A stretch of 64,000 nucleotides of DNA from Owenweeksia hongkongensis DSM 17368 (GCF_000236705.1 NC_016599.1:2790001-2854000), one strand, 5' to 3'. Shown: positions 7,085 through 30,482, numbered from the stretch's first letter. Notes: generated from the sequence alone by a model not told the origin. Numbers and translations: made by a program.

Positions 7085-8611
7085 ATGTCCTTATTTGGAA
7101 CGCTCGTAAAGGGAGGTATTAAGTTAAATCACGCACTCAGTTTTGACAATGAGAATGCTGCGGAGCAACAAGAAAAGCAGCTTCGCCTATTATTGAAAAA
7201 AGCCAAAGACACTGCTTTTGGAAAGTATTATGGTTTTGCAGAAATGCTAAAAGCGGATGATGTAATAAAAGCTTTTCAAGCGGAGGTTCCTCTTTTTGAC
7301 TATCACCAGATGCACGAAGCTTGGTGGCAAAAGCAACAAGAGCATCCAGATATTAGTTGGCCGGGTAAGCCCGAATTTTTTGCGCTAAGCAGTGGTACCA
7401 CGGGTAAAAGTAGCAAGCGCATCCCCATTACAGATGAGTTTTTGCAAAGCATGAAAGATGTAGGAACATCGCTCATAAAGTCAATTCCTGAGTTTGATTT
7501 CCCCGAAGAGTTGTTTGAAAGTGAAGTGCTGATGCTGAGCAGTAGTGCTAATCTCAGCAAAAATGAAAGCGGCCATTTAGAGGGCGAAATTAGCGGAATA
7601 AATGTGAGCAATTTTCCTGGTTGGTATGATGTGTTTTATCGTCCGGGAAAGGAAATAGCCTCCATCACCGACTGGGACGAGCGCGTGCAACGAATTGCTG
7701 AAGAAGCTCCCAACTGGAATATTGGGGCTATAGCCGGCATACCTTCTTGGGTGTTGCTTATGTTGCAAAAAGTGATAGAGCATAATGACCTGAAAAATAT
7801 TCATGAGATTTGGCCAAATCTTACCGTTTATGCTAGTGGTGGTGTGGCCTTTGAAACCTATCGTAAAGATTTTGAAGCGATTTCAGGAAAACCAATTACC
7901 ATCATTGATACCTATTTAGCTTCCGAGGGTTTCTTTTCCTATACGGCTCATCCCAACACTATGGACATGCGATTGGCCTTGGAGCACGGCTATTTTTATG
8001 AGTTTATTCCTTTTGATGAACGCGGAGTAGATGAACATGGGGGCTTGCTTGAAAATCCTGTGATTCACACCATAAGTGAGGTGGAGCTGGATCAGGAATA
8101 TGTTCTTATAGTGAGCACCTGTGCCGGTGCTTGGCGATACCAAATTGGGGATGTGGTGAAGTTTACCAACCTGGAACCGCATGAAATAAAAATTACCGGA
8201 CGCACCAAGTTCTTTTTAAATGTGGTTGGTTCACAGCTTTCTGAAGAAAAGATGGACGATGCTATTTTGGAAGTTTCTAAGGCGCTGGATATTACGGTAA
8301 ACGAATATTCGGTGGCAGCCATAAAAAATGAGGAAGGCGAATATATTCACCAATGGGTGGTAGTTTCTGAAATGGAAATTGATGAAAATGCTTTTGCCGA
8401 GAAATTAGATGATTCGCTCAAAGAGGCGAATAAAAATTATGGAGTAGCCCGCAGCAAGGCCTTGAAAGGAATTAGAGTAAAAGGAATAGGCAAGGAAACT
8501 TATCACAATTTTTTGGCAAAGGGCAAGAAAAAAGGAGGGCAAGTGAAGACACCTAAGGTGATGAATGAAGAGAGGATGAAGGGGTTTTTGGAGTTTATTC
8601 AGACAGCATAG
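7085..8611 (+). CDS. GH3 family acyl-acid-amido synthetase
   Basis: This 508-residue protein belongs to the GH3 (auxin-responsive promoter) family of the adenylate-forming superfamily, enzymes that activate a carboxylic acid with ATP and join it to an amine, usually an amino acid. The phosphate-binding motif SSGTTGKSS is at residues 102-110. Further family motifs are YLASEGFF, the YxxGD-like WRYQIGDVVKF and the hinge-region ITGRTKFFLNVVGSQLSE. Plant members conjugate hormones; the natural substrates of bacterial members are generally not known. The length is slightly below that of plant enzymes (about 580-600). It stands alone on the plus strand; a repeat-rich spacer and a strong hairpin follow it. 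Confidence 0.9.
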   Translation: MSLFGTLVKGGIKLNHALSFDNENAAEQQEKQLRLLLKKAKDTAFGKYYGFAEMLKADDVIKAFQAEVPLFDYHQMHEAWWQKQQEHPDISWPGKPEFFALSSGTTGKSSKRIPITDEFLQSMKDVGTSLIKSIPEFDFPEELFESEVLMLSSSANLSKNESGHLEGEISGINVSNFPGWYDVFYRPGKEIASITDWDERVQRIAEEAPNWNIGAIAGIPSWVLLMLQKVIEHNDLKNIHEIWPNLTVYASGGVAFETYRKDFEAISGKPITIIDTYLASEGFFSYTAHPNTMDMRLALEHGYFYEFIPFDERGVDEHGGLLENPVIHTISEVELDQEYVLIVSTCAGAWRYQIGDVVKFTNLEPHEIKITGRTKFFLNVVGSQLSEEKMDDAILEVSKALDITVNEYSVAAIKNEEGEYIHQWVVVSEMEIDENAFAEKLDDSLKEANKNYGVARSKALKGIRVKGIGKETYHNFLAKGKKKGGQVKTPKVMNEERMKGFLEFIQTA

Positions 8612-11876: not shown

Positions 11877-12416
11877 TTATCCGCGCTGTTCTTCGTGTTC
11901 TTGAGCTAATTCAATCATCATATTTTCAAAATTCTCATATTGTAATTGAAACTCATCATAAACTTCGTGGTCCCAAAGTACAATTGGATATTCGAAATTT
12001 TCACACTTTAAAGTAGTGTCAAAGCATAAAAGTCCCCAATCGCTCCAACTGGCAAATGGAATTCTCCCTGTCTCAATTAAATTTTCACTTGGATAATCGT
12101 TAAATATCATTTTCATTAATTCCACACGCCACGTATTTACTGGATGTGAACAGAAAGAACACTCAGCAATATAGAATTCGTAAAAATGCTTATGCTTTAG
12201 AAAACTCTTGTAGCTATCTGGAAGTTTATATCCAATTTCTTTTTCTAACTCTTGCAACTCTTTATCAGTTACTGTACTTTTTATCGGAAACCATTTATTC
12301 CATTCCTGATATTGGTCAGCATTTTTATCTGCCATTTCAGGTTCTATTTTAATCGGTCTTGAATTTAAGTCAAGAGTGATTATTTCATCCAGATATTTGT
12401 CAATTATTTTGTCCAA
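11877..12416 (-). CDS. SUKH (SMI1/KNR4) family protein
   Basis: This 179-residue protein begins at a TTG (12416). The SMI1/KNR4 signature is present: TDKELQELEKEIGYKLPDSYKSFL (about 50-73), then IPFASWSDWGLLCFDT and YPIVLWDHE. SUKH proteins are known mainly as immunity proteins against secreted polymorphic toxins in bacteria. No toxin gene adjoins it, so it is an orphan; it could protect against toxins from neighbouring cells. It has no signal peptide. The 62-bp repeat at 12437 lies 20 bases upstream of the start. Confidence 0.82.
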   Translation of the reverse strand: MDKIIDKYLDEIITLDLNSRPIKIEPEMADKNADQYQEWNKWFPIKSTVTDKELQELEKEIGYKLPDSYKSFLKHKHFYEFYIAECSFCSHPVNTWRVELMKMIFNDYPSENLIETGRIPFASWSDWGLLCFDTTLKCENFEYPIVLWDHEVYDEFQLQYENFENMMIELAQEHEEQRG

Positions 12417-12601: not shown

Positions 12602-14242
12602 GTGGGTAAATATTTACTTCTTGTTCTATTAATATGTGGAACTGTGGCTGGCTTCGGCCAAAATGCTCGTGGTTTATATAAAGAAGCTGTTCTTCGAGAA
12701 AAATCATCGCCCGAAGAGGCATACCTGAGTGCTACCAAAGCTTTAAAGCTTGCCGAGCTTGAAGAAGATCAATTGCTGGAGGCAGAAGTTTTGCAGCTAC
12801 TGGGGAAGATATTTTACGATCAAGGGGCCTTTATGCAGGCCATGGAATATTACCATGAGTCGGATGCTATTTATATGGAAAGTCATGATGAAGACCGACA
12901 TGCCCAAAATCAGTTGGAGCTCGCCAAGGTGTATTACTACCTAAAACAGCCCGACAAATCTTTCGATCTTATTACAAAAGCGCAGAGCTTTTATGAGCGC
13001 ACAGGTGCCAATAAATGGTTAGCCGAAGTGTATGGCCAGCTGGGGCACATGTATGAAAAAGCTGAGAAATACGATACGGCCTGGTTTTATGAAAATAAAG
13101 CGCTGAAGCTTCATCAGCAGTTTGGAGATTCGGCAGGGGTAGCCCGGGTATATGAGAATCTTGGAAGTATTTTGGAGGATAAGGAAGACTATGCTCAAGC
13201 CAGACATTGGTTTAGCAAAGCAGCAAGCTTCAATAGTGCCTTAAAGAACGAAGTGGCTCTTGTGGGAAACCTAAATAATATTGGCGATAGCTACCGAAAG
13301 ATGGGTGTTTTGGATAGCGCCTATTTCTTTACCCACCGTGCTTTGGAGATTTCTCAAAGTCTGGAGCTTCGTTATCAGGAAAGTTCTGCTTTGCGCGATT
13401 TGAGCAAAGTGTTTTTGGACAGTGGCGAGAGCAAGATTGCCTATCAATATTTGGATAAAAGCAGCCAGCTTTATGAAGAGCTGTATTCGCAGGAAGCGGG
13501 AAAACAAGTGGCGCTGTTGCAAACGCTTTATGATCTGGAGCGAAAAAATGCAGAGATAATCGAACTGGAAAACCAGCAGCGTATTGAAGGAATCAAGCGC
13601 ATCGGCATGATGGCTGGCGGGCTTTCATTGCTGCTTATTGGCGGAATTGTGGTGAGCAGGCAAAGGCTAAAAATCCGAAAGAATCAGCAACTGATGGATC
13701 AGGAGAAAGCACTGCACAAAGCAGCATTGGAAAACTCTGAATTGCAGGCGGAGCAGCTAAAGATGGAGCTTGAGCATAAGCAACTACAGGAAAAACATTT
13801 AGAGCTGGAATTGGAACTGGGTCAAAAAGCATTGGCTTCAAGGATGCTTCAATTGATTGAAAAGAACAAGTTGCTGGAAGCTTTACGAGAGGATATTTAC
13901 GAAATAGAAAGTGAAGTGCCAGCTGCTACGCAGAAGAAGGTAAAGTACATCGCCAACCAAATTAACTACAGTTTTAACCACGATAAGTCTTGGGAAGATT
14001 TTAGAAAAAGCTTCGAGCAGGTTCACTCGGGCTTTTTTGATAAACTAAAAAAAGGGAGTGCTGAGCTCACCTCAAATGACCTTCGAATTTGTGCCTTGAT
14101 GAGAATCAATTTAGGATCAAAAGACATCGCAAGCCTTTTGGGGATTTCCACAGACAGTTTACGGGTGGCTCGTTATCGTTTACGCAAGAAACTTAACATT
14201 GACCAGGGTGATAATCTCCGGAAATTCATTCTAAGTATTTGA
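12602..14242 (+). CDS. Membrane-anchored TPR protein with C-terminal LuxR-like HTH
   Basis: This 546-residue protein starts at a GTG directly after an in-frame TAG (12599-12601). The start is supported by the signal sequence that follows (YLLLVLLICGTVAGFGQ). Tetratricopeptide repeats fill about 25-320 and would lie in the periplasm. One transmembrane helix (about 339-353) follows, then a long coiled coil (about 355-430) and a C-terminal helix-turn-helix (LGSKDIASLLGISTDSLRVARYRLRKKL). Proteins of this architecture in Bacteroidota are thought to regulate nearby genes from the membrane. The next genes, same strand, are a TonB receptor, a lipoprotein and a phytase, so it is the likely local regulator. 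Confidence 0.85.
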   Translation: MGKYLLLVLLICGTVAGFGQNARGLYKEAVLREKSSPEEAYLSATKALKLAELEEDQLLEAEVLQLLGKIFYDQGAFMQAMEYYHESDAIYMESHDEDRHAQNQLELAKVYYYLKQPDKSFDLITKAQSFYERTGANKWLAEVYGQLGHMYEKAEKYDTAWFYENKALKLHQQFGDSAGVARVYENLGSILEDKEDYAQARHWFSKAASFNSALKNEVALVGNLNNIGDSYRKMGVLDSAYFFTHRALEISQSLELRYQESSALRDLSKVFLDSGESKIAYQYLDKSSQLYEELYSQEAGKQVALLQTLYDLERKNAEIIELENQQRIEGIKRIGMMAGGLSLLLIGGIVVSRQRLKIRKNQQLMDQEKALHKAALENSELQAEQLKMELEHKQLQEKHLELELELGQKALASRMLQLIEKNKLLEALREDIYEIESEVPAATQKKVKYIANQINYSFNHDKSWEDFRKSFEQVHSGFFDKLKKGSAELTSNDLRICALMRINLGSKDIASLLGISTDSLRVARYRLRKKLNIDQGDNLRKFILSI

Positions 14243-14278
14243 AATAAAAACAATTAAAAGCGATGTATCCTGTTTTCG

Positions 14279-14324
14279 ATGTTGCCTTTTTTTAATGCTT
14301 TTTAAAACACATGTTGCCTTTTTT
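14279..14324 (+). promoter_or_regulatory. Direct repeats upstream of the phytase-locus receptor
   Basis: The 14-base sequence ATGTTGCCTTTTTT occurs at 14279-14292 and again at 14311-14324. The spacing is 32 bases, close to three helical turns. The repeats lie 76-121 bases before the receptor start at 14400. They are candidate half-sites for an activator, perhaps the regulator encoded just upstream. Confidence 0.4.
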
Positions 14325-14399
14325 GTGCCATGTAATTAACCTTCACACAACCCTAAGTGCGCTCCTTTGCCCCGTACTAAATCACAAATCAAAGTATTA

Positions 14400-17102
14400 A
14401 TGAAAAGATTATTATGCACTGTTCTTTTGGGGTGCGGGGCCATGTTTCAAATGATGGGACAAGGGGCTATTCTAAAAGGAAAAATTAGCGATGCGGTGAA
14501 TGAAGAGCCGCTTCCCGGAGCTGAGGTATACCTTAAGGGAACCTCTACCGGAAGCACTTCCGATTTGGAAGGGCAATACAGCTTTAACCTTCCGGAAGGT
14601 GAGCACACCTTGGTTTTTAAGTTTATAGGATATGAAGACCAGGAGCGTACGGTAACCCTAAAGGCAGGGCAAACATTGGTGGAAGATGTAGTTCTTTCTT
14701 CTAAATATGAGCAGCTGAATAGTGTAACCATTACGGGAAATCTGCAAGGGCAATCAAAAGCACTTAACCAACAGCGATCTGCGGATAACATTAAGAATGT
14801 GATAGCTTCAGATCAAATGGGGCGTTTTCCAGATCCTAATGCTGCTGAGGCTTTGCAGCGTGTTTCGGGTGTAAACATTGAGCGCGACCAAGGAGAAGGA
14901 CGTTATGTTTTTGTTCGTGGATTGGCGCCACAGTTTACCAATATTAGTGTAAACGGGGAGCAGATTCCTTCGCCTGAAGCGGATGTGCGATTTGTAGCCT
15001 TGGATGCAATTCCTGCAGATCAGCTAGCTTCCATGGAGGTTACAAAATCACTTACGCCTGATATGGATGGAGATGCGATTGGTGGTTCTGTAAACTTGAT
15101 TACACGCACCGCAGAAACTAAGAAACCCCAAATTAGAGGTTCACTTGTGGGTGGTTATAACAACCTTCGTCAAACACCAAATTTTCAAGGGTCACTTTCT
15201 TACGGTCAGCGCTTTTTAGAAAACAATAAACTGGGTGTGTTGCTCAACGCCAGTTATTATGAAAATGAGCTAGGATCGGACAACTGGGAGCGCGAGCCTT
15301 TTGACAATGAAATGGAGCTTCGCGACTATGAACTTACCAGAACACGTACGGGCTTTAGTAGCACCATAGATTACAAATTCAACCCAAATACGGAAGTTTA
15401 TGTAAAAGGTTTGTATACACGTTTTACTGATCGCGAATGGAGAAGACGTTACGTTTTTGCACCTGAGGATGATGAGGTGTCGATGGCTTTGAAAGACCGA
15501 TTTGAATCACAAACAATAAGCACGGTAAACATTGGTGCTCGTCACAATTTTCCGCGTATTCAGGTGGATTATGAAGCACAGTATTCTTACGGTGAGCAAA
15601 ACACTCCTTATGATAATGAATTGACTTTTGTAGGAGATATTTCAAGTAATCTTGATTTTTCGGGAGAGTATCCGAGCCTTGATGCTCCGGGATATTTAGA
15701 CAATTCACAATATGGTTTTGACGAATTTGAAAACGGAAACACCTTAGCCGAGGATAGAAACCTTACCGGTAAATTCAATATTGGGATTCCTTACAAAACA
15801 GGAAAAAATGAAGGTCTTTTGAAATTTGGTGCAAAAGCCCGTTTTAAAGACAAGTCATTTACCATAGTAAATAATAAGTACGAAGACCTTGGTGGCGTAC
15901 CCGGAGCGGATTCTTTTGAAGAAGATGAAGCCTCTAAAAACTTTTTGGGAGACCGTTATGAATTTGCGGCATTCCCGGATATGGGTAACTTCATTACCTA
16001 CTTCAATGACAATCCTGCTCAGTTTGAATTGCAAACTGAAGACAAGGCTATTGACGAAGCAGTGGAAGCTTTTGAGGCTACCGAAAATGTAATTGCAGCT
16101 TATGTGATGGCGCGCCAGCAGTTTAATAAGCTTACCGTGCTTGGAGGTGTTCGCTATGAGCGCACCGAAGTGGAGTACAAATCAAACGATGTGGTGATTG
16201 ATGCGGCTGGTGATTTGGAGGCAATCATCCCGCAGGATGGCGGAACGGACTACGACTACATTTTGCCACAGCTGCATTTTAAGTATGCTTTGGATTATTA
16301 CACCAACATTAGAGCGGCCGCTACCTTCTCGTATGCTCGCCCCAACTTCTCACAAATTGTACCTGCACAGGAGGCAAATCTAGAGGACAATGAAGCGACC
16401 GTTGGAAATGCACAACTAAAACCGGTTGATGCTTTTAACCTTGATCTTTTGGGAGAACATTATTTCAAAAGTGTGGGTGTGCTTTCAGGAGGTTTGTTTT
16501 ACAAAAATCTGAACAACTTTATTTACAACCGCACTATTTTCAATGCAAGCTATCCGCTTACTGCGGTTAACCCAATTGCTACAGGTGTTGACATTACGCA
16601 AGCGCAAAACGGGCAGCAGGCTAATATTTATGGTGTGGAGCTGGCTTATCAGCAGCAGTTGGCTTTCCTTCCGGGATTGTGGAAAAACTTCAATGTTTAT
16701 TTGAATTATACCTACACGCATTCAAATGCAAAAATTCAAGCCAGAGGCTCTTCCAATGCTGATGATACAGAAGATTTGGCTTTGCCAGGGCAAGCAGCAA
16801 ATTTGGGTAATGCGGCTTTGGCTTATGAAAATAAGAAGTTTTCAGCTCGTGTGGCGGTAAACTTCAACGGGTCGTACTTGTCAGAGATTGGAAGTTCAGA
16901 GGCGGAAGATATTTATATCGCCAACCGTGCCCAGCTTGATGTTTCAGCTTCCTACACCATCACTCCAAAATTCAGAGTGTTTGTAGAAGCAATGAACCTT
17001 ACCAACCAGCCTTTTGAAGCGTATCAGGGTAGTGAGGATGTAGTTATTCAGCGCGAGTATTACTCATGGTGGACTCGCGTGGGTGTGAAATTCGATTTGT
17101 AA
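14400..17102 (+). CDS. TonB-dependent receptor of a putative phytate locus
   Basis: The start is the ATG at 14400 (MKRLLCTVLLGCG), which opens a signal peptide; a TTG at 14367 would add eleven unlikely residues. The roughly 900-residue protein has a carboxypeptidase-regulatory-like domain (about 22-110), a plug (DQMGRFPDPNAAEALQRVSG, then RYVFVRGLAPQFTNISVNG) and a 22-strand-type barrel ending in WTRVGVKFDL with a terminal aromatic. The plug wording matches the TonB-receptor subfamily found in Xanthomonas and Caulobacter (TIGR01782 type). A lipoprotein and a beta-propeller phytase follow with 20- and 27-base gaps, so inositol phosphates are the most likely transported ligand. The ligand is inferred from context only. 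Confidence 0.92.
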   Translation: MKRLLCTVLLGCGAMFQMMGQGAILKGKISDAVNEEPLPGAEVYLKGTSTGSTSDLEGQYSFNLPEGEHTLVFKFIGYEDQERTVTLKAGQTLVEDVVLSSKYEQLNSVTITGNLQGQSKALNQQRSADNIKNVIASDQMGRFPDPNAAEALQRVSGVNIERDQGEGRYVFVRGLAPQFTNISVNGEQIPSPEADVRFVALDAIPADQLASMEVTKSLTPDMDGDAIGGSVNLITRTAETKKPQIRGSLVGGYNNLRQTPNFQGSLSYGQRFLENNKLGVLLNASYYENELGSDNWEREPFDNEMELRDYELTRTRTGFSSTIDYKFNPNTEVYVKGLYTRFTDREWRRRYVFAPEDDEVSMALKDRFESQTISTVNIGARHNFPRIQVDYEAQYSYGEQNTPYDNELTFVGDISSNLDFSGEYPSLDAPGYLDNSQYGFDEFENGNTLAEDRNLTGKFNIGIPYKTGKNEGLLKFGAKARFKDKSFTIVNNKYEDLGGVPGADSFEEDEASKNFLGDRYEFAAFPDMGNFITYFNDNPAQFELQTEDKAIDEAVEAFEATENVIAAYVMARQQFNKLTVLGGVRYERTEVEYKSNDVVIDAAGDLEAIIPQDGGTDYDYILPQLHFKYALDYYTNIRAAATFSYARPNFSQIVPAQEANLEDNEATVGNAQLKPVDAFNLDLLGEHYFKSVGVLSGGLFYKNLNNFIYNRTIFNASYPLTAVNPIATGVDITQAQNGQQANIYGVELAYQQQLAFLPGLWKNFNVYLNYTYTHSNAKIQARGSSNADDTEDLALPGQAANLGNAALAYENKKFSARVAVNFNGSYLSEIGSSEAEDIYIANRAQLDVSASYTITPKFRVFVEAMNLTNQPFEAYQGSEDVVIQREYYSWWTRVGVKFDL

Positions 17103-17122
17103 TCAACAAAGAAATTTAGGAG

Positions 17123-18118
17123 ATGAAAAAGATAATTTACAGCACGCTGATGCTGGCCATACTCGCGGCATGCAGCAAAGAAAATAAAGACGTGGTCACG
17201 CCAACTTCGCCAGAAGATATGCCCATCCAAATAGTTTTGGATGCGGACGAAGAGGGAAATGTAGAAGATGATGACAAAGCTACAATGGCCTTCACTTTTA
17301 CTGATCGAATGGATCCTACAGGAGAGGAGATTGGTGGAATTACACCAACGCTTAGCCAGCCAGCCACCATCACTTGTATGATAAAGGGCCCTGAAGGTTT
17401 TAGTAACCTGGGTGATTATATTTTGGATATCAAAGCGCTGTATGAAGTTGATGATTGCACCGAGGCTGATATTACGGTTACTTACGATTTGAGCACAGGT
17501 GAATTTAGCTTTGAATTCCCTGCAGGGGTAGAAGAAGTGGAAGTGGAGTTTGAACTTGATGACGTACTTTTTGACGATGATGTGGTAAGTGACGATCGTG
17601 GTTTTGTGGTTGAGGTGCTAGGTCATAGCAACACTTCAGAAAAGGTGGTGATCAACACAGATACAGAGTTTGAGTATAAGGTGCTTGACGATGAACTGAT
17701 TTTTGGGGAGTATGAATTGGATCTTACTCAGCAAAATCTGGATATGTTAATAACCCTATTTGGAGTGGTGAACGAAGATTTGGCGGACCTTGATTTGGCC
17801 GATATCGATGCATTTGAAATGGAGGTTTCTCTGGAGGACATCGAGTTCAAAACGGTGCTAATAGAAGAGGAAGCTGATGAGTGCGATCCCGCTGATTTTA
17901 GTAATGTAGAAGTAAGTGTAGAAGGTGAATTTGAAGAATTGACCGATGATGAGCTTACTGGCGATATTGTGTTTATCGTAGAGCTTGAAGCTGACAACGG
18001 AGCAGTGGAAGAGTTTACATACGAAGGGAATTTTGAGATTAATGGTGATAACCTGATCCTTACGCTGGAATGCGAAGATTTGGAAACAGGGGAAGTTACC
18101 TTAACCTACACCCGCTAG
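17123..18118 (+). CDS. Highly acidic lipoprotein of the phytase locus
   Basis: This 331-residue protein has a lipoprotein signal with the lipobox LAAC (Cys17). By hand count about 90 residues are Asp or Glu, in clusters such as DADEEGN, FELDDVLFDDD and IEEEADECD. I do not recognise a family. It lies between the TonB receptor and the phytase, in the place a SusD-like surface protein takes in sugar loci, but it has no SusD wording. Such a negative surface would repel phytate unless charged with a divalent metal. Beta-propeller phytases need calcium, so calcium binding is an appealing but untested idea. Confidence 0.8.
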   Translation: MKKIIYSTLMLAILAACSKENKDVVTPTSPEDMPIQIVLDADEEGNVEDDDKATMAFTFTDRMDPTGEEIGGITPTLSQPATITCMIKGPEGFSNLGDYILDIKALYEVDDCTEADITVTYDLSTGEFSFEFPAGVEEVEVEFELDDVLFDDDVVSDDRGFVVEVLGHSNTSEKVVINTDTEFEYKVLDDELIFGEYELDLTQQNLDMLITLFGVVNEDLADLDLADIDAFEMEVSLEDIEFKTVLIEEEADECDPADFSNVEVSVEGEFEELTDDELTGDIVFIVELEADNGAVEEFTYEGNFEINGDNLILTLECEDLETGEVTLTYTR

Positions 18119-18145
18119 ATAGTATTAATAGAAAATTAAAAGATT

Positions 18146-19246
18146 GTGATAAAGATAGATTTTAAGACAGTGGCCATTGCAGCTTTGGCCATTAGCGCAG
18201 CAGCTTGCCAGCAAAATGTAGAAGCCGGAAACACGGCTACTCAAGAGGATAGTACTTCAGTAGTAAAAGTGGTGGAACCGGTTTACGTAAGTGATCAGGT
18301 GCGTTTTGATACGGATGATCCTGCTATTTGGGTAAACCCAAAAGATGCTTCGAAGAGCATCATATTTGGAACGGACAAAGACGAAAACGGGGCTCTTTTT
18401 GCTTTTGATCTAAAAGGGAAAATTATAGCCGACAAAGTGGTGGATTCACTGCAAAGACCAAACAATTCCGATGTAGAATACGGATTGATGGCAGGTGATT
18501 CGACTATTGATATTGCTGTGGTGGCGGAGCGTTTTACGCACAAGATTCGTGTATACCGATTGCCTGATATGATGCCTATTGACAATGGTGGCATTGACGC
18601 TTTTGTAGGCGAAAAAGGTGAAGAGTTTCGTGACTTGATGGGCATTAGTAGCTATAGAAACCCGGCTGACGGAAAAGTATATGTGATAGTAGGTCGCAAA
18701 AATGGCCCAACCGATGGAACCTATTTGTGGCAGTATGAGCTTACCGCTAATTCTCCTGAAAGTGTGAGTGCAGAGCTGGTTCGCAAGTTTGGAGCTTACA
18801 GTGGCAAAAAGGAAATTGAAGCCATAGCTGTAGACGATGAGTTGGGCTACATTTATTATTGTGATGAAAATGTAGGTGTGCGCAAGTACTACGCTGATCC
18901 TGCTAAAGGGAATGAAGAACTGGCCATGTTTGGCGAAGGAAAATTTGCGGATGACAATGAAGGTATTGCCATCTACAAAACAGAAGGCGGCAAGGGTATC
19001 ATTTTCGTGTCAGATCAGCAGGCTACCCGCTTGGCCGCTTTTCCGAGAGAAGGAGCTGATAACGATGCCCACAATCATCCATTGCTTGGCTATGCAGCTT
19101 ACAAAGCTTTGGAAACGGATGGTATAGAAATAGTGAGCCAGCCGCTTAATGAAGATTACCCTAAAGGAATATTGGTGGCTATGTCAGAAGGAAAGACATT
19201 TCACCTGTATAGCATGAAGGATATTTTAGAGGCCCTGAAAAAGTAG
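18146..19246 (+). CDS. Beta-propeller phytase lipoprotein
   Basis: This 366-residue protein starts at a GTG and has a lipobox at Cys21 (ISAAAC), so it is anchored in an envelope membrane facing outward or to the periplasm. It carries the alkaline phytase (3-phytase, PF02333) wording: DDPAIWVNPKD with IIFGTDKDENG, NNSDVEYG, IDIAVVAERFTHKIRVYRLPD, EIEAIAVDDELGYIYYCDENVGVRKY and DNEGIAIY. These enzymes use calcium to remove phosphates from inositol hexakisphosphate at near-neutral pH. The acidic residues that bind calcium in the family lie in the DDP, DNEG and CDEN stretches. It closes an operon of receptor, acidic lipoprotein and phytase; a terminator follows. Confidence 0.92.
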   Translation: MIKIDFKTVAIAALAISAAACQQNVEAGNTATQEDSTSVVKVVEPVYVSDQVRFDTDDPAIWVNPKDASKSIIFGTDKDENGALFAFDLKGKIIADKVVDSLQRPNNSDVEYGLMAGDSTIDIAVVAERFTHKIRVYRLPDMMPIDNGGIDAFVGEKGEEFRDLMGISSYRNPADGKVYVIVGRKNGPTDGTYLWQYELTANSPESVSAELVRKFGAYSGKKEIEAIAVDDELGYIYYCDENVGVRKYYADPAKGNEELAMFGEGKFADDNEGIAIYKTEGGKGIIFVSDQQATRLAAFPREGADNDAHNHPLLGYAAYKALETDGIEIVSQPLNEDYPKGILVAMSEGKTFHLYSMKDILEALKK

Positions 19247-19272
19247 TTGTCTTTTTAAATTCTAAAATGAAT

Positions 19273-19303
19273 CCCCATCGGCAGAGGCTGGTGGGGGTTT
19301 TTT
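19273..19303 (+). terminator. Terminator after the phytase gene
   Basis: A 10-bp stem (CCCCATCGGC pairing with GCTGGTGGGG, two G-T pairs) with a 4-base loop is followed by TTTTTT at 19298-19303. It lies 27 bases after the phytase stop. Confidence 0.8.
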
Positions 19304-22133: not shown

Positions 22134-23519
22134 ATGTATTTGCTTCAAATGAGTGAGCTTGATCAATTAAAACCAATTCAAAAAAATAATTTTAATCGGA
22201 TGACACTGGTAAAAACAAAATCGGAGGAGCTTCTGGAAAGAAGAAGCAATGTAGTGGCGAATGGCGTGGGTGTGTTTAATACCGCCACGGTACGCGAGGC
22301 CAAGGGTGCCATAATAATAGATGAGGATGGCCGTGAGTTGATTGACTTTGCTGGAGGTATTGGTGTGGTAAATGCGGGCCATTGCCCTGAGCCTGTGGTG
22401 AAAGCCATTCAGGAACAAGCAGCTAAGTATATCCATACTAGTTTTAATGTGGTGACCTACGAGCCTTATATTAAGCTATGTGAGGAGTTAGCTGAAATTT
22501 TGCCACATGGCGAAAAGACCAAAGCTATGCTTGTGAGTACCGGAGCCGAGGCGGTAGAAAATGCTATCAAGATTGCGCGTCAGGCTACAGGTAAGCAAGG
22601 TGTGCTTTGTTTTACAGGCGCTTTTCATGGGCGTACCATGATGGCGATGACGCTCACTAGTAAAATCAATTACAAAACCGGATGTGGCCCTTTTGCACCT
22701 GAGGTTTACAGATTGCCTTTTCCAAACTTTTACAGATATAGTGAAGCGAAGGATATGGATGAGTTTGTGAAAAATGAACTTCATAGACTTCACGAAAGCA
22801 GCTACAACCTGGTGCAGCCAGAAAACTTGGCGGCTATCATTTTGGAGCCCGTGCAAGGTGAGGGTGGCTTTAATGTGGTTCCCCCAAAATATCTGGAAGG
22901 GCTACGTGAATATTGCACCAAGCATAACATAATGCTTATTCTGGATGAAATTCAAAGTGGATTTGCAAGAACGGGTAAATGGGCAGCTTGGCAACATTAT
23001 AATGTAAAACCAGACATCAGCACTTATGCTAAGTCTTTGGGTTCAGGTATGCCTATATCGGCAATTCTGGGCCGTGCTGAGGTAATGGACGCAGCTGCTC
23101 CCGGAACAATCGGAGGAACATATATTGGTAATCCACTCAGTTGTGTTGCAGCTTCAGCTACCATTCAGTTTATGAAAGATGAAAATCTGAATGAAAGGGG
23201 TACGGAAGTAGGGAACATTATACGTGAAAGATTCCTTAGGATAATGGGTGAATGTTCAGAAGTAGGAGATGTGCGTGGTTTGGGAGCCATGGTGGCTATT
23301 GAATTTGTGAAAAATGGAGACCCCAAAAAACCCAATGCGGAGATCTGTAGCGAGGTAATAAAAGGCTGTGCTGAGCGTGGCCTTGTTCTATTGAGTGCCG
23401 GAACGTTCAAAAATGTAATTCGAGTATTGGCACCACTGGTTATCACTAACGACCAGCTCAATCAAGGTTTAGATATTTTAGAATCAGAAATTAAAAAGGC
23501 TTCGGCCAAAACAATATGA
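22134..23519 (+). CDS. Class III aminotransferase, GABA-transaminase-like
   Basis: This protein has up to 461 residues; ATG codons at 22134, 22149 and 22200 are all possible, and homology of MTLVKTKSEELLERRS to typical starts favours 22200. The PLP lysine is Lys300 (STYAKSLGSGMP, counted from 22134), the cofactor aspartate is Asp271 (LILDEIQSG) and the phosphate-binding region is VSTGAEAVENAIK. The wording fits 4-aminobutyrate:2-oxoglutarate aminotransferase (GabT) better than ornithine or acetylornithine enzymes. It would convert a terminal amine to an aldehyde. It overlaps the next gene by four bases and opens a six-gene operon that ends with a succinate-semialdehyde dehydrogenase. Confidence 0.9.
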   Translation: MYLLQMSELDQLKPIQKNNFNRMTLVKTKSEELLERRSNVVANGVGVFNTATVREAKGAIIIDEDGRELIDFAGGIGVVNAGHCPEPVVKAIQEQAAKYIHTSFNVVTYEPYIKLCEELAEILPHGEKTKAMLVSTGAEAVENAIKIARQATGKQGVLCFTGAFHGRTMMAMTLTSKINYKTGCGPFAPEVYRLPFPNFYRYSEAKDMDEFVKNELHRLHESSYNLVQPENLAAIILEPVQGEGGFNVVPPKYLEGLREYCTKHNIMLILDEIQSGFARTGKWAAWQHYNVKPDISTYAKSLGSGMPISAILGRAEVMDAAAPGTIGGTYIGNPLSCVAASATIQFMKDENLNERGTEVGNIIRERFLRIMGECSEVGDVRGLGAMVAIEFVKNGDPKKPNAEICSEVIKGCAERGLVLLSAGTFKNVIRVLAPLVITNDQLNQGLDILESEIKKASAKTI

Positions 23520-24466
23520 AACCATTTGCAATAGCGGGAATCCAAATGAAGGTTTCCGCAGTAGCGTCCAACGTAGAAATGATGAAGCTGAAGTTGGACA
23601 TTGCCATGAATCTTTATCCATGGGTAAATATGGTGGTGTTTAGTGAGCTGTGCGCGCATGGTCCACTTACCCACAATGCCCAGGAAGTTCCAGGGGAGTT
23701 TGAGCAAGAAATGCGAGCCATGGCTAAGAAGCATGGAATTTGGCTTTTACCGGGATCTATTTTTGAAAAGAGTGAAGGAAAGATTTTCAACACGGCAACT
23801 GTAATCAACCCCGAAGGAGAAGTAGTAACGAGATATCGCAAGATGTTCCCGTTTTACCCTTATGAAGTGGGCGTAACTCCAGGTAGCGAGTTCTGTGTGT
23901 TTGATGTGCCGGATGTCGGTCGATTTGGAGTTTCCATCTGTTACGATATGTGGTTTCCAGAAACCATCAGAACACTGGCAGTGATGGGTGCGGAGGTCAT
24001 TCTTCACCCTACCTTGACAGGAACGATTGATCGCGGAATTGAGCGTTCTATAGCTCTGGCAATGGCAGCTGTAAATCAATGCTTCTTTTTTGATGTGAAC
24101 GGTTTGGACACAGGTGGTAGTGGGCTATCCGTAGTGTGTGGCCCTGACGGAAGGTTTATTCACGAGTCAGGAGGTACAGAGGAAATATTCCCAATAGAGA
24201 TAGATATGGAACGCGTAAAGCGTAGCCGTGAGTTAGGTGTTCTTCGTTTAGGACAGCCTCTCAAGAGCTTTCGTGACCACATTGGTGATTTTAATATTTA
24301 CCAACCTGGAGCGGATCATTCTTATTTAAATTCATTGGGTCCACTTATTAAGCCTACTCGCATGGATAAGCTGGCAGAGCTAAAAATTATTGAAGACGGA
24401 TACGATCATGAACAAGCCGCATCTCTAGTTGGATACAAGGGTGATGGGCAACTAAATCCAAAATAA
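23516..24466 (+). CDS. Nitrilase-superfamily carbon-nitrogen hydrolase
   Basis: This 316-residue cytoplasmic enzyme has the complete Glu-Lys-Cys triad: Glu44 (FSELCAHG), Lys109 (RYRKMFPF) and Cys142 (SICYDMWFPE). Members hydrolyse amides, carbamoyl groups or nitriles. The context with an amine-forming decarboxylase and an ATP-grasp ligase suggests an amidase that releases an amine or GABA from an amide-linked intermediate, or an N-carbamoyl-amine amidase. A C-terminal extension of about 50 residues after the nitrilase core (after FRDHIGDFNIY) is somewhat unusual. Translation is probably coupled to the upstream aminotransferase through the ATGA overlap. Confidence 0.9.
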   Translation: MKPFAIAGIQMKVSAVASNVEMMKLKLDIAMNLYPWVNMVVFSELCAHGPLTHNAQEVPGEFEQEMRAMAKKHGIWLLPGSIFEKSEGKIFNTATVINPEGEVVTRYRKMFPFYPYEVGVTPGSEFCVFDVPDVGRFGVSICYDMWFPETIRTLAVMGAEVILHPTLTGTIDRGIERSIALAMAAVNQCFFFDVNGLDTGGSGLSVVCGPDGRFIHESGGTEEIFPIEIDMERVKRSRELGVLRLGQPLKSFRDHIGDFNIYQPGADHSYLNSLGPLIKPTRMDKLAELKIIEDGYDHEQAASLVGYKGDGQLNPK

Positions 24467-24467
24467 T

Positions 24468-24875
24468 ATGGGATCAGTTACTTCAAGTAAAGGAAAGGCA
24501 CCGGGCCGGTTGAAGGACTTTATAAGTTGGTTTGAAATACCAGCCGTCAATTTTCAAAATGCGGTTAATTTTTACAATCATATCTATGGAATAGAAATGG
24601 AAACTCATTTTTCCGTGGAGCATTCTATGGCCTGGTTTCCCGCAAATAGAGGTATTGGAGGGGCCATTGTGAGTGGTCCCGGCTCTACCCCAAGCGAAAA
24701 AGGTCCTTTGGTTTACTTAAATGGAGGAGCGGATCTTAATACGGTGCTCAACCGTGTAGAAGAAGCTGGCGGGCGCGTGGTTTTACCCAAAACTTTAATC
24801 AATGAAGAATCTGGCTATTTTGCTATCTTCATAGACTCTGAAGGGAATAAACTCGCGCTACACTCAAAAAACTAA
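24468..24875 (+). CDS. VOC-superfamily protein in the amine operon
   Basis: This 135-residue glyoxalase/bleomycin-resistance fold protein has ISWFEIPAVNFQNAVNFYNHIYG in its first half and GYFAIFIDSEGNKLALHS in its second. Metal ligands of the enzymatic members cannot all be matched, so the role may be binding or catalytic. It begins one base after the nitrilase stop and ends three bases before the decarboxylase, so it belongs to the operon. Its function in the pathway is unknown. Confidence 0.88.
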   Translation: MGSVTSSKGKAPGRLKDFISWFEIPAVNFQNAVNFYNHIYGIEMETHFSVEHSMAWFPANRGIGGAIVSGPGSTPSEKGPLVYLNGGADLNTVLNRVEEAGGRVVLPKTLINEESGYFAIFIDSEGNKLALHSKN

Positions 24876-24878
24876 GTT

Positions 24879-27620
24879 GTGACTAAAAAGAAGCAAATAA
24901 GTGCCCCATACTATAATATTGGTCAACTTCGTGTAGACTTTTGGACGGGGCTGAAAAATGAAACCACCGAATTGGCACGCTGCAACAACGGTTCAGCAAA
25001 TCAAAAGAGCCATATAAAGGAGGTGAAAGAATATTTGCGGAAGTTGGAATCTGTAGAGTCGTTTTTTGCTTTTCCTGGTTTCCACCGAATGAAAAGCTTT
25101 TCACAGCAATTGGAGGACGGAAGATACGGAGAGTTAGCACGAAACGTGGCTGAAGATGTAAAGCAGCTGGTAAGTGATAGCTACAGAGGTAACCCCCGGT
25201 TTTTAGAAGAGGATTTGCTGAATGAGCAAACCCAGCATGCAACGGGTAATCAAGGTGTAAGTAAAACTTACTTTGAAGTACTCTTTGTAGAGGAAATGAC
25301 AGAGCAGGAAGAGTTGGACTTGCGTGTGGACATGGCTCAGCTTCGCAATCCTAATGATCAATTCACTTATGGCGTGGTGGTAAAGCGTTCTTTTCAAGAT
25401 GCATTGATCGCCTTACTTTTCAATTTTAATATTCAGGCTGTAGTTGTGCGTTATGCACCTTCTTATTATTCAAAAGGAATTGAACCGGAGGTTAAGCCCT
25501 ACATTGAGTATGTAAAAAAATTAGATTTTTCTTCCAGACCTGAGTATGAATTGGGTCCTATCTTAGGAAGGCTTATTCGTCAGTTTAGGCCCGAGCTGGA
25601 TGCATATTATGTTACGGATACATCTTTAGGAAATTTAAAGGATAAGACCATTAGTGCGTTTAACCGCATTTTTTATAGAAAAGAAGACCTTCAGGAAATT
25701 CACCTCACTATAATGCGGGGCATTGAAGAAAGGTACGAAGCGCCCTTCTTTTCAGCATTAAAAAAGTATAGCCAAAAGCCTACAGGTGTATTTCATGCTA
25801 TGCCCATTTCGAGGGGAAACTCGGTTTTTAAATCCAGATGGATAAAAGACTTTGGAGACTTTTATGGAAGGAATATGTTTTTGGCAGAAACATCGGCAAC
25901 CACTGGTGGATTGGATTCATTGCTTCAACCAACTGGCCCGCTTAAAAAAGCGCAGGAAATGGCGAGTGATGCCTATGGGTCTAAACGTACTTTTTTTGTT
26001 ACCAATGGTACTTCTACCGCCAATAAAATAGTGATGCAGGCGCTGGTAAAGCCTGGTGATGTAGTGATGATTGATCGCGATTGTCATAAATCACATCATT
26101 ACGGATTGGTGCTTTCGGGTGCTTTTCCGGTGTACCTGGATTCATACCCTATCGAAGAATACTCCATGTATGGAGCTGTTCCGCTTGAGGAAATAAAAGA
26201 AAAGCTTCTAAAACTGAAAGCTGCAGGAAGGCTGGATAAGGTAAAAATGCTGCTGCTTACCAATTGCACCTTTGATGGATTGGTGTATAATGTGCAGCGA
26301 GTGATGGAGCAGGTTTTGGCTATAAAGCCGGATATGATATTTCTTTGGGATGAAGCCTGGTTTGCCTTTGCGGGATTTTCTTACCTGTATAAGCAACGTA
26401 CGGGTATGTTTGTGGCCAGAAACCTTTACCGAAAATATAATAGCGATAAGTATAAAAGGTTTTACAAGCAATACATTAAGGATTTGCCGGAAGGTGAATG
26501 CTCACTTTACCCTGATCCCGACAAAGTGAAAATTCGGGTGTATTCTACTCAAAGCACCCATAAAACACTGAGTAGTTTCCGTCAGGGTTCGATGATTCAT
26601 ATTTGGGATGAAGATTTTAAAAGGAAAAGTGAAAGCACCTTTTTGGAGGCCTACATGACGCACACTTCCACATCTCCAAATTACCAAATGCTGGCATCGC
26701 TTGACATCGGCAGGAGGCAGGTGCAGTTTGAAGGCTTTGAGCTGGTGGAGAAAAGCTTGGAACTGGCGATGGTGCTTCGGGCGAAGATTAATGATACCCC
26801 AGAACTACATAAGTATTTTGAGGTGCTTACTATACAGGATTTCATACCTGAGAAGCATCGCGAAACCGGAATTAAGGAATATTACGATAAGGAACTTGGG
26901 TGGAGTAGAATTGAAGAGGCCTGGGAGAAAGATGAATTCATTCTTGATCCTACCAAAATCACTTTGAATATTGGGAAGACTGGGGTTGATGGAGATACTT
27001 TCAAGAATAAGTATTTGATGGATAAGTTTAATATTCAGATTAATAAAACCTCCAGAAATACTGTGCTTTTTATGACCAATATTGGTACCACCAGAGGGAG
27101 TGTTACTTATCTGGTGAACTCTCTTCTGAAAATAGCCGCGGCATTAGATGAGGATATAAAAGCATTGAGTGGTGCAGAGGTGAAAATACGTGATGCACGA
27201 ATTCATTCACTTACTTGTGAGGTACCGCCCCTGCCGGATTTTAGTCATTTTCATGAATCTTTTCAAGCTGTGCCTGGTGTGCCTGGTGGTAATTTGCGCG
27301 AAGCTTATTTCTTAGTTTATAATGAAGAAAACTACGAATATATACCGCTAGATGAGTGCTTAGAAGCTATGGCCTTGAATCAAGTTTTGGTGGCGTCTTC
27401 ATTTGTCATTCCCTACCCACCAGGATTTCCTGTGTTGGTGCCAGGCCAGGTGGTAAGTGTAGAAATAATCAAGTTTTTGCTGGCTTTAGATGTATCTGAA
27501 ATTCATGGGTATCGAGCAGATTTAGGCCTTAGGGTATTTAAGCAAAGTGTACTCGATCGTCATAAAACCACCACATCAATTGGTATGAAGCAAACCAAAG
27601 GAACCTATAAACCGAAATAA
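24879..27620 (+). CDS. Large PLP-dependent ornithine/lysine/arginine decarboxylase-family enzyme
   Basis: This 913-residue protein starts at a GTG. Fold-type I PLP decarboxylase features are the FFVTNGTSTANKIVMQAL motif, the acid DxxxH step (IDRDCHKSHHYGL), cofactor Asp491 (FLWDEAWFAFAG) and PLP Lys562 (STQSTHKTLSSFRQGS). The 71 residues between Asp491 and Lys562 are about 34 more than in E. coli inducible lysine decarboxylase, and the whole protein is about 200 residues longer. The insertion contains a basic YRKYNSDKYKRFYKQY stretch. The N-terminal 300 residues are poorly recognisable. The product would be putrescine, agmatine, cadaverine or a relative; the substrate cannot be chosen from sequence alone. 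Confidence 0.88.
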   Translation: MTKKKQISAPYYNIGQLRVDFWTGLKNETTELARCNNGSANQKSHIKEVKEYLRKLESVESFFAFPGFHRMKSFSQQLEDGRYGELARNVAEDVKQLVSDSYRGNPRFLEEDLLNEQTQHATGNQGVSKTYFEVLFVEEMTEQEELDLRVDMAQLRNPNDQFTYGVVVKRSFQDALIALLFNFNIQAVVVRYAPSYYSKGIEPEVKPYIEYVKKLDFSSRPEYELGPILGRLIRQFRPELDAYYVTDTSLGNLKDKTISAFNRIFYRKEDLQEIHLTIMRGIEERYEAPFFSALKKYSQKPTGVFHAMPISRGNSVFKSRWIKDFGDFYGRNMFLAETSATTGGLDSLLQPTGPLKKAQEMASDAYGSKRTFFVTNGTSTANKIVMQALVKPGDVVMIDRDCHKSHHYGLVLSGAFPVYLDSYPIEEYSMYGAVPLEEIKEKLLKLKAAGRLDKVKMLLLTNCTFDGLVYNVQRVMEQVLAIKPDMIFLWDEAWFAFAGFSYLYKQRTGMFVARNLYRKYNSDKYKRFYKQYIKDLPEGECSLYPDPDKVKIRVYSTQSTHKTLSSFRQGSMIHIWDEDFKRKSESTFLEAYMTHTSTSPNYQMLASLDIGRRQVQFEGFELVEKSLELAMVLRAKINDTPELHKYFEVLTIQDFIPEKHRETGIKEYYDKELGWSRIEEAWEKDEFILDPTKITLNIGKTGVDGDTFKNKYLMDKFNIQINKTSRNTVLFMTNIGTTRGSVTYLVNSLLKIAAALDEDIKALSGAEVKIRDARIHSLTCEVPPLPDFSHFHESFQAVPGVPGGNLREAYFLVYNEENYEYIPLDECLEAMALNQVLVASSFVIPYPPGFPVLVPGQVVSVEIIKFLLALDVSEIHGYRADLGLRVFKQSVLDRHKTTTSIGMKQTKGTYKPK

Positions 27621-27638
27621 AAAATCAAATCGTACAAG

Positions 27639-29114
27639 ATGAGTAAGAAGAAGACTTCCACAAAACCGCTAAAAGGTATATCGGACATAAGAAGGTATTT
27701 TCATAAAAATGAGGTGCCACTATATTTTATAAGTGCCACCAACTTCAACTTGCTTGGCGCGGATGAGTGGATAAAAGGTTTTAAATACATCACCTATATC
27801 GAGTGCTTTGATGGTCTGCACCCAAACGTGTTTTCACCAAAAGAGGAAATTCCACATGACGACTTTGAAAGTATTGAAGACATCAACAATTATATGCTTC
27901 AGCACCCCGAGGTGCAGGATTACTTGAAAACAAGAAGTAAGGATGGTAAGGCTGGCAAAGCCATGTTTTTAATGTTTGATGAAAAAACGGAGGATTTAGC
28001 GGATAAATTGGGATTGGAAATTATGTTTCCACCAGCCAAGATGCGAACCTTTATGGACAATAAGGTAAATACAAATCGACTGGCCGAAAAGGCTGGAGTG
28101 GCTTGTGTACCTTATGTTTTGTCCAATGTAAAAGATTATGAACACCTATGTGAGGTTTCCAAACATTTAGGAACCGACCTTGTAATTCAAACTCCTTTTG
28201 GTGATTCTGGACACACTACTTTTTTCATTACAAATGAAGAAGAATTTGAAAAGCATGAGGAGGAAATTGTTGCTGAAGATGAGGTGAAAATCATGAAGCG
28301 CATCAACTGTAAAGGTGCTGCTATTGAAGCTTGTGTTACAAGACACGGAACCATTGTAGCCCCCTTGATGACGGAGTTGGTAGGTTTTAAAGATTTGACT
28401 CCATACAAAGGCGGCTGGTGTGGAAACGAGATTTATCCAAATGCCTTTACAAACACCATTCGCCATAAGGCAAGAAAGTATACAAGGCTGTTTGGTGACC
28501 AACTGAGAGAGGAAGGTTACAAAGGATATTTTGAGCTTGACTTTTTAATTGATCAGGATAATGGCGAGGTATATTTGGGTGAATTAAACCCGAGGGTAAC
28601 TGGGGCGAGCTCTATTACCAACCATGCGGTTTTTGCTTTGGCAGATGCGCCATTGTTCGTGTTTCACATTTTAGAGTGGATGGACATTGACTACGAGCTA
28701 AGCATTAAAAGCTTGAATGCCCGTTGGGGGAAACAGGAAAACATTGATGGCTGGAGCCAATTAATTATTAAGCACACCGAGGATACCATTGAATATGTAA
28801 GTAGTGCTCCGAGGTCTGGAATTTGGAGGATGTTTGATAACGGTCACATTCGTTTTGATAGGATGGACACACACAGGCGTGCCGTGGAAAGCGAGAGTGA
28901 AGCCTTCTTTTTGCGCATAACGCGCCAAGGGGATTATTTGTACGAAGGTGCGGATATGGGGATTTTGGTATCGCGAGGCCGTATGATGACGGACGATTTC
29001 GAGCTGGTTCCACGTGCCAAAGATTGGATAAAAGGTATTCGTGCTCAGTATGTGAGTGAGCTTATAAAAGACAAAAGGAAAAAAGGGAACCTAAGTGGAA
29101 CCTTAACAAAATAG
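27639..29114 (+). CDS. ATP-grasp ligase in the amine operon
   Basis: This 491-residue protein has an ATP-grasp fold with wording like biotin carboxylase: DLVIQTPFGDSGHTTFFI, MKRINCKGAAIEACV and FELDFLIDQDNGEVYLGELNPRVTG, the last carrying the acidic and Asn residues that bind magnesium-ATP. No biotin-carrier domain is present. ATP-grasp enzymes without one typically join a carboxylate to an amine or thiol through an acyl phosphate. In this operon it could attach an amino acid to a diamine or amino acid. Its gene sits 18 bases after the decarboxylase and 12 before the dehydrogenase. Confidence 0.86.
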   Translation: MSKKKTSTKPLKGISDIRRYFHKNEVPLYFISATNFNLLGADEWIKGFKYITYIECFDGLHPNVFSPKEEIPHDDFESIEDINNYMLQHPEVQDYLKTRSKDGKAGKAMFLMFDEKTEDLADKLGLEIMFPPAKMRTFMDNKVNTNRLAEKAGVACVPYVLSNVKDYEHLCEVSKHLGTDLVIQTPFGDSGHTTFFITNEEEFEKHEEEIVAEDEVKIMKRINCKGAAIEACVTRHGTIVAPLMTELVGFKDLTPYKGGWCGNEIYPNAFTNTIRHKARKYTRLFGDQLREEGYKGYFELDFLIDQDNGEVYLGELNPRVTGASSITNHAVFALADAPLFVFHILEWMDIDYELSIKSLNARWGKQENIDGWSQLIIKHTEDTIEYVSSAPRSGIWRMFDNGHIRFDRMDTHRRAVESESEAFFLRITRQGDYLYEGADMGILVSRGRMMTDDFELVPRAKDWIKGIRAQYVSELIKDKRKKGNLSGTLTK

Positions 29115-29126
29115 CAAGAAAACATT

Positions 29127-30482
29127 ATGGAATTTAAAAGTATTAATCCCTACAATGGAGAAGAAGTAGGGACATACACAGGCTTGTCCGATACTGCTTT
29201 GGATGCCAAATTAAAATTAGCAAAAGAGGCCTTCACTAAATGGAAAAAAGTACCATTGGAAGAGCGAGCCAAATTGATGTCAAAGGCTGGGGAAGTGCTA
29301 AAGGAAAACGTAGAGAAATACGCTAAAATGATTACGCTGGAAATGGGTAAACCTATTTCCGAATCAAGGGGCGAGGTAAATAAATGCGCTTGGGTGTGCG
29401 AGTATTATGCTGAAAATGCCCAGGAGTTTTTGAAAGATGAGGTGATTGAAACGGATGCTCAAAAAAGCTTTGTAAGACATGACCCGATAGGGGCTGTGTT
29501 TGCTGTAATGCCATGGAATTTTCCCTTTTGGCAGGTATTTAGGTTTGCTGCTCCAACCCTCACAGCTGGAAACGTAGGCCTACTCAAACATGCTGCAAAT
29601 GTATTTGGCAGTGCCGAAATGATTGAAGAGGTTTTTACCAAAGCCGGTTTCCCTGAAGGTGTGTTTCAGAATTTGATTATTCATCACGACAAAACTGATA
29701 AGATTGTAAAGGATGATATTGTAAAAGCAATTACCCTTACGGGAAGTGGGCGTGCGGGCTCAGCTGTAGCCGAAATTGCTGGCCGTAACTTGAAGAAGTC
29801 TTTGCTTGAACTTGGAGGTAGTAATGCTTTTATCGTTTGGGAGGATGCGGATATTGATAAGGTTGTAAAAACTGCTATTACCGCTCGTATGATGAACTGT
29901 GGGCAAAGTTGTATTGCAGCCAAACGTTTCATTTTATTAGAAGGAATTTATGACGAGTTTGTGGAGAAGTTTACGGTTTCTGTAAAAGACCTTAAGGATG
30001 GTGATCCGCTAAATGAAGATACCAAAATTGGCCCCATGGCACGTAAGGATTTGGCGGATGAACTGAACCGCCAGGTTAATGAATCAGTGGCTTTAGGGGC
30101 GGAATTACTACATGGTGGAAATCAAAAAGAATGTTATCATGAGCCTACAGTTCTTGGTAATGTTACTCCTGAGATGCCGGCATTCAAAGAAGAGACTTTT
30201 GGGCCATTGGCCACCATGATAAAAGCTAAAAGCATAGAGCATGCGTTTGAGCTTTCTGAGCAGTCAGATTTTGGTTTGGGCGTTACAGTATGTACTGAAG
30301 ATATTGAGAAGGCCTTAAGCATGGCAGGAGAGGTGAGCGATGGAGCTTACTTTGTAAATGAACTTGTAAAATCGGATCCTAGATTGCCGTTTGGAGGAAC
30401 TAAAAACTCAGGTTTTGGACGTGAGCTTGCCAAAGATGGAATGATGGAATTTGTAAACCGTAAGACTGTCTATGTGAAATAG
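29127..30482 (+). CDS. Succinate-semialdehyde dehydrogenase-like aldehyde dehydrogenase
   Basis: This 451-residue aldehyde dehydrogenase has catalytic Cys262 (NCGQSCIAAKR), general base Glu228 (LLELGGSNAF) and Asn131 (MPWNFPFWQ). Its short N-terminus and SITxx-free wording fit the NAD(P)-dependent succinate-semialdehyde dehydrogenase group. With the GABA-type aminotransferase at the start of the operon it would complete conversion of GABA to succinate. Coenzyme preference is not clear. It is the last gene of the operon; a long hairpin follows. Confidence 0.9.
   Translation: MEFKSINPYNGEEVGTYTGLSDTALDAKLKLAKEAFTKWKKVPLEERAKLMSKAGEVLKENVEKYAKMITLEMGKPISESRGEVNKCAWVCEYYAENAQEFLKDEVIETDAQKSFVRHDPIGAVFAVMPWNFPFWQVFRFAAPTLTAGNVGLLKHAANVFGSAEMIEEVFTKAGFPEGVFQNLIIHHDKTDKIVKDDIVKAITLTGSGRAGSAVAEIAGRNLKKSLLELGGSNAFIVWEDADIDKVVKTAITARMMNCGQSCIAAKRFILLEGIYDEFVEKFTVSVKDLKDGDPLNEDTKIGPMARKDLADELNRQVNESVALGAELLHGGNQKECYHEPTVLGNVTPEMPAFKEETFGPLATMIKAKSIEHAFELSEQSDFGLGVTVCTEDIEKALSMAGEVSDGAYFVNELVKSDPRLPFGGTKNSGFGRELAKDGMMEFVNRKTVYVK

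Follow-up and report, generated by a model that had tools for sequence, protein, structure and literature searches.

A probable phytase operon with its own regulator

The genome of the marine bacterium Owenweeksia hongkongensis (4,000,057 bp, single contig) contains, within the 64-kb stretch of DNA analysed here (the window), four consecutive open reading frames (ORFs) on the + strand coding for a membrane regulator with tetratricopeptide repeats (TPR) and a helix-turn-helix (HTH), a TonB-dependent receptor, a very acidic lipoprotein and a homologue of beta-propeller phytases (Table 1). We consider it fairly probable that they form a locally controlled operon that serves to obtain phosphate from inositol phosphates or comparable phosphate esters. 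This view is carried by a conserved gene order, a single clade of phytase-linked regulators, a DNA motif that accompanies the regulator and the co-inheritance of receptor and lipoprotein, all of them read from sequence comparisons.

An earlier note on this DNA had placed the four genes on the same strand with 20 and 27 nt between the last three, which we confirm; the regulator is separated from the receptor by 124 nt if the listed TTG at 14367 is taken as the receptor start. The true start is almost certainly the ATG at 14400, because the TTG falls within a conserved promoter-like TTTG block.

Table 1 Features of the O. hongkongensis phytase locus (positions in the window)
Feature	Position	Strand	Evidence
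Membrane one-component regulator, TPR and HTH	12602..14242	+	ORF, profiles, clade
Putative operator copy 1, CGATGTTGCCTTTTTTTAATGC	14277..14298	+	Motif score 18.0 bits
Putative operator copy 2, ACATGTTGCCTTTTTTGTGCCA	14309..14330	+	5.3 bits alone; spacing 32 bp
TTTG block, probable core of Bacteroidota -7 promoter element	14366..14369	+	+89 from copy 1
TonB-dependent receptor, TIGR01782 type, N-terminal carboxypeptidase-D-like domain	14400..17102	+	Profiles; start re-placed
Acidic lipoprotein, lipobox Cys17	17123..18118	+	Calx-beta-like and FABP/lipocalin-like in model
Lipoprotein beta-propeller phytase homologue, PF02333	18146..19246	+	Profile; Cys21
Terminator-like hairpin	19269..19300	+	14 pairs and T-run

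Phytase loci were gathered by an alignment-based search that gave 80 named loci. The receptor is adjacent to the phytase in 79 of them, and 68 carry a regulator homologue at most four genes upstream (contig ends cut some of the other 12). Three architectures could be distinguished: receptor with acidic lipoprotein (architecture A, seven named loci plus the genome G006 and the window), a different receptor with a beta-helix-like lipoprotein (B, 58 named loci) and a receptor without lipoprotein (C, 15 named loci). The order regulator-receptor-lipoprotein-phytase, which the earlier note had proposed to look for and had described as looking like a Bacteroidota arrangement, does occur across families of this phylum. 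It is found exactly in seven other genomes (Emticicia, Rufibacter, a Fluviicola metagenome-assembled genome, Pedobacter metabolipauper, Mucilaginibacter limnophilus, Flavihumibacter and G006) and, with one phosphoesterase inserted, in an eighth, Desertivirga. This recurrence in unrelated families rules out a chance adjacency of the four genes. Receptor and phytase have swapped order in five loci, which count among the 68 with a regulator; the regulator still comes first in Belliella, Algoriphagus, Cyclobacterium and Chryseosolibacter, where it is followed by the phytase and then the receptor. Relatives of the phytase turned up in 48 of the 395 Bacteroidota genomes sampled and in eight of 60 close relatives; the three other species sampled from the genus gave none, so that the locus is patchily distributed. 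In several other genomes (loci L042, L054, L070, L072 and L148) the phytase or the receptor seems to be followed by a gene for a major facilitator superfamily (MFS) transporter. Judged by eye, those of L042 and L148 are GlpT/UhpC-like, and in L148 a glycerophosphodiesterase-like gene comes next; in L054, L070 and L072 the call comes from position and length only.

The regulator

The predicted domain order of the regulator is a signal peptide, TPR repeats outside the inner membrane, a transmembrane (TM) helix at about residues 333-352, a cytoplasmic coiled coil and a C-terminal HTH. The TPR repeats match the profile TPR_12 (2.7e-21), and the HTH reaches 15.7 bits against the GerE profile, below the curated cut-off of 23.5. 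Thus, of the TPR/LuxR-type regulator announced in the earlier note, the TPR, membrane and HTH parts stand, while the C-terminal domain can be called LuxR/GerE-like only at a sub-threshold level.

That this regulator is dedicated to the phytase locus, as also claimed in the earlier note, is well supported by comparison of its homologues. In a tree of these, the 49 phytase-linked regulators, that of the window among them, fall in a single clade (support 97/87), with all 16 other homologues outside; the only unlinked member of the clade is L123, a second copy in the Chitinophagaceae genome G308. Eight of the nine strongest regulator matches in the 395 genomes adjoin a phytase, counting the window's own copy, and the ninth is again the second copy in G308. 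Where a genome has the locus, its top match is the phytase-linked gene and the next one is usually far weaker; genomes lacking the phytase give weak matches only. A literature search, mainly of freely accessible papers, found no TPR/LuxR regulator tied to a phytase.

A paired motif upstream of the receptor

An unsupervised search of 56 non-redundant regulator-receptor gaps found a motif of 22 bases, CGcTGTTGCCTTTTTGTaaaCG, with a log-likelihood of 623 against 132-136 in shuffled sets. Of 74 loci with a regulator, 73 contain a match above 9 bits, versus one of 38 loci without, and in that one (L174) there is a displaced regulator homologue, with a small ORF call between. A matrix trained on architecture B alone gave 9.8-35.2 bits for held-out B loci, 9.6-26.7 bits for all eight A loci and at least 11 bits for five of eight C loci; without a regulator, no locus but L174 exceeded 6.8 bits. 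Moreover, in five rearranged loci with the regulator directly before the phytase, the motif lies 117-121 nt upstream of the phytase start.

The motif usually comes in paired copies, spaced by exactly 32 bp in 46 cases and by 31 bp in eight. In the window the second copy is weak alone, but it follows the first at the distance seen in relatives. Of the 17 matches from a blind search of the 395 genomes with the paired pattern, seven fall between regulator and receptor at phytase loci; the remaining 10 are about as many as the nine of a reversed-pattern control. Only the pair in the window matched without any mismatch. The TTTG block stands at a fixed distance after the motif and is the probable core of a Bacteroidota -7 promoter element. 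This distribution makes the motif very probably the operator of the regulator. We saw no sign of autoregulation: 5' of the regulator the motif scored at best 10.5 bits, and this at a single locus. L126 also has a site resembling the motif (8377-8398, 16.0 bits), just 3' of a TPR-HTH regulator homologue unlinked to phytase, and from this site the wider TPR-HTH regulator family may share the operator type.

The receptor and its acidic lipoprotein

The receptor matches CarbopepD_reg_2 (8.1e-23) and Plug (8.9e-15) and passes the cut-off of TIGR01782 (528 bits, cut-off 310). Its 73 bits against the SusC-type model TIGR04056 are under the cut-off of 368. By the earlier note, its proposal would fail if orthologous receptors stood mostly beside unrelated enzymes; this is not so, as 32 of the 48 nearest receptors adjoin a phytase gene, and about six more adjoin other phosphate-ester enzymes or a sugar-phosphate transporter (judged by eye). 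The next-nearest relatives of the receptor (L129-L133, about 39-47% identity) have as partner a phytase of a more divergent type, which the main phytase search missed.

Receptors accompanied by the acidic lipoprotein are 56-63% identical to that of the window, those with no lipoprotein 33-37%. When the lipoprotein class (three architectures) was mapped on the trees, two changes, the minimum, were enough on the receptor tree, versus 10 on the regulator tree and nine on the phytase tree. Receptor and lipoprotein therefore appear to travel together as a cassette, with regulator and phytase remaining in place, and the comparison of the trees gives good support to their being an exchangeable, co-inherited pair. 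The receptor-linked acidic lipoprotein of the earlier note is thus borne out. It had also put this protein in the SusD position. It does follow the receptor, but the likeness goes no further than position: none of nine members matched SusD among the Pfam profiles, and its equivalence to SusD finds no support.

The mature lipoprotein has 91 aspartate or glutamate residues versus 11 lysine or arginine, and in all nine homologues acidic residues make up 21-29%. The window protein matched nothing in a search with known-domain profiles (Pfam Calx-beta gave no match either) or in a sequence-level search against solved structures. An AlphaFold2 model from nine sequences reached a moderate mean confidence (pLDDT, predicted local distance difference test, of 73; 46 with two sequences), and in it the protein models as a Calx-beta domain followed by a lipocalin-like barrel. 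Modelled residues 33-190 resemble Calx-beta domains, best the calcium sensor of the sodium-calcium exchanger NCX1 (Z 10.1, 2.7 A, 115 residues), a fold match without sequence support. Residues 189-331 resemble the barrels of fatty-acid-binding proteins (FABP) and UnaG (Z about 6.5), possibly just a common arrangement.

Since beta-propeller phytases depend on calcium and have calcium-phytate as substrate, a calcium role for the lipoprotein is attractive. It could be a calcium-holding accessory rather than a substrate lid, loading calcium for the phytase or binding calcium-phytate, which we find plausible but short of likely. The conserved extreme acidity and the likeness to a calcium sensor speak for it; against it are the missing sequence-level Calx-beta match, the moderate model confidence and the fact that other operons with a similar phytase use a different lipoprotein or none. 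This proposal is compatible with the phosphate-ester operon proposed above and concerns the lipoprotein only.

The phytase

The last gene is a clear member of PF02333 (2.4e-36, 126 bits, cut-off 21) and matches Bacillus beta-propeller phytase (1POO, 1CVM, 1H6L, 3AMR) in sequence at 1.5e-24. Twelve of the 15 Bacillus active-site or neighbouring positions compared are identical (D55, D56, K76, N99, N100, R122, K179, E211, E227, D258, E260 and D314), while K77, Y159 and D308 differ. In 21 of 21 homologues compared, Tyr159 is replaced by Met and Asp308 has no equivalent; the roles of the Bacillus residues are as we presume them, with these two counted as active-site residues. Cys21 is invariant in the 21 homologues, and we thus take the enzyme to be a lipoprotein. 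Most of the calcium and phosphate ligands of the Bacillus enzyme are kept, and the window enzyme differs from it in its lipid anchor as well as at Tyr159 and Asp308.

Proposed function and alternatives

In the operon as we picture it, the TPR domain of the regulator would sense a periplasmic signal from the inner membrane, and its cytoplasmic HTH would bind the two copies of TGTTGCC-TTTT-TGTnnACG that sit immediately 5' of the promoter with a spacing of 32 bp, or three helical turns. Binding would activate rather than repress transcription, so that receptor, lipoprotein and phytase would be made as one transcript up to the terminator-like hairpin, the putative end of the transcription unit. 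The receptor and its matched acidic lipoprotein would capture the ester or take it up, possibly complexed with calcium; phosphate would be released by the lipid-anchored phytase. Phytate may be both inducer and substrate, and the hydrolysis may be calcium-dependent and located at the cell surface, as the earlier note proposed for the hydrolysis.

The motif also invites another explanation. It resembles a Pho box, with two 7-mers starting with TGT, an 11-bp period and a T-rich spacer, and the homologous genes of Flavobacterium johnsoniae, the only ones for which induction is known, are phosphate-inducible. It could thus be a PhoB box that places the operon in the phosphate-starvation regulon, the TPR regulator having another or a secondary role. 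We regard this as quite improbable, since the motif is in only one of the 38 regulator-less phytase loci, precisely the one with a displaced regulator, and follows the regulator to the gap before the phytase in the five rearranged loci; besides, this genome of 4 Mb has only one paired copy, and a Pho box would be expected at further phosphate genes. The substrate is a separate question. Receptor relatives are found, by eye, beside alkaline phosphatase, calcineurin-like phosphatases or a GlpT-like transporter with a glycerophosphodiesterase, and the two presumed active-site residues differ, so the operon might capture another phosphate ester (sugar phosphates, glycerophospho compounds, polyphosphate or phosphorylated glycans) with the phytase homologue acting as a general phosphatase. 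This seems unlikely to us given that most close receptor relatives adjoin phytases, that only three of the compared Bacillus positions have changed and that the PF02333 match is strong.

Several points weigh against an operon under local control that acts on inositol phosphates. Some receptor relatives adjoin other phosphatases or unrelated genes, and the loss of Tyr159 and Asp308 makes phytate hydrolysis by this enzyme less than certain. The association between regulator and motif is partly confounded with taxonomy: a sister-pair test with about five supported contrasts gave 4.3 in agreement and none in disagreement (p about 0.125). Elsewhere the regulator is dispensable for a phosphate response, as Flavobacterium pairs without regulator and motif are still phosphate-inducible. 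Going beyond the locally controlled operon, a whole branch of TPR-membrane-HTH regulators could be devoted to phytate, reading periplasmic inositol phosphate or calcium-phytate and acting via two copies 32 bp apart, with receptor-lipoprotein pairs of different origin (one of them with Calx-beta) swapped behind the same regulator and phytase; this we find rather doubtful.

Part of the system is familiar. In F. johnsoniae the receptor Fjoh_1368 and the 3-phytase Fjoh_1367 are strongly induced by phosphate depletion, and organic phosphorus uptake was proposed for them by the authors (PMC8115612). The window shares with this pair the adjacency of receptor and PF02333 phytase in a member of the Bacteroidota, as also seen in the Flavobacterium-like loci examined here; unlike the window, these loci have no TPR regulator, acidic lipoprotein or operator motif. 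The Flavobacterium Pus systems (PusC/PusD, SusCD-like, phosphate-induced; PMC8115612) follow a similar logic of receptor, lipoprotein and phosphatase for organic phosphorus. However, the window receptor is of the TIGR01782 type and under the SusC cut-off, its lipoprotein has no SusD domain, and the regulators of Pus loci are extracytoplasmic function (ECF) sigma/FecR (PMC8115612) instead of a TPR-TM-HTH protein. In the proteobacterial Citromicrobium a TonB receptor lies beside a phytase and phytate uptake was proposed (PMC3400609), in a passage that names no regulator or lipoprotein. The nearest NCBIfam model to the window regulator is the BT3442 family, with the same order of TPR, membrane segment and C-terminal HTH found in other Bacteroidota regulators, but the match is of 51.6 bits against a cut-off of 940 and the phytase-linked proteins form a separate clade. 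In short, the receptor and phytase core with phosphate-starvation induction is already known, whereas the dedicated sensor, its putative DNA sites and the extremely acidic partner of the receptor seem to lack an earlier description.

Soil and water contain large amounts of organic phosphorus in the form of phytate, and the Bacteroidota play a major part in consuming organic phosphorus. The regulator clade and its paired putative operator offer a testable handle on phytate sensing as opposed to phosphate shortage alone. The TPR-HTH regulators of the phylum are abundant and uncharacterised, and this may be the first time that a DNA target is predicted for any of them. The swapped receptor-lipoprotein pairs reveal modular parts of such uptake kits.

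Neighbouring genes

Rfam and tRNA scans of the window found no feature. Directly upstream of the locus, on the opposite strand (11880-12416, -), there is a gene of the SUKH/SMI1-KNR4 family, often immunity-type. Directly 3' of the phytase operon, an Abi_2-type gene (PF07751; 19536-20441, +) has one in-frame stop after residue 128 and is probably decayed. Further on, at 22134-30482 (+), tightly packed genes that by eye code for an aminotransferase, amidase-like, glyoxalase-like and large pyridoxal-phosphate decarboxylase-like proteins, among others, look like a separate amine or amino-acid pathway.

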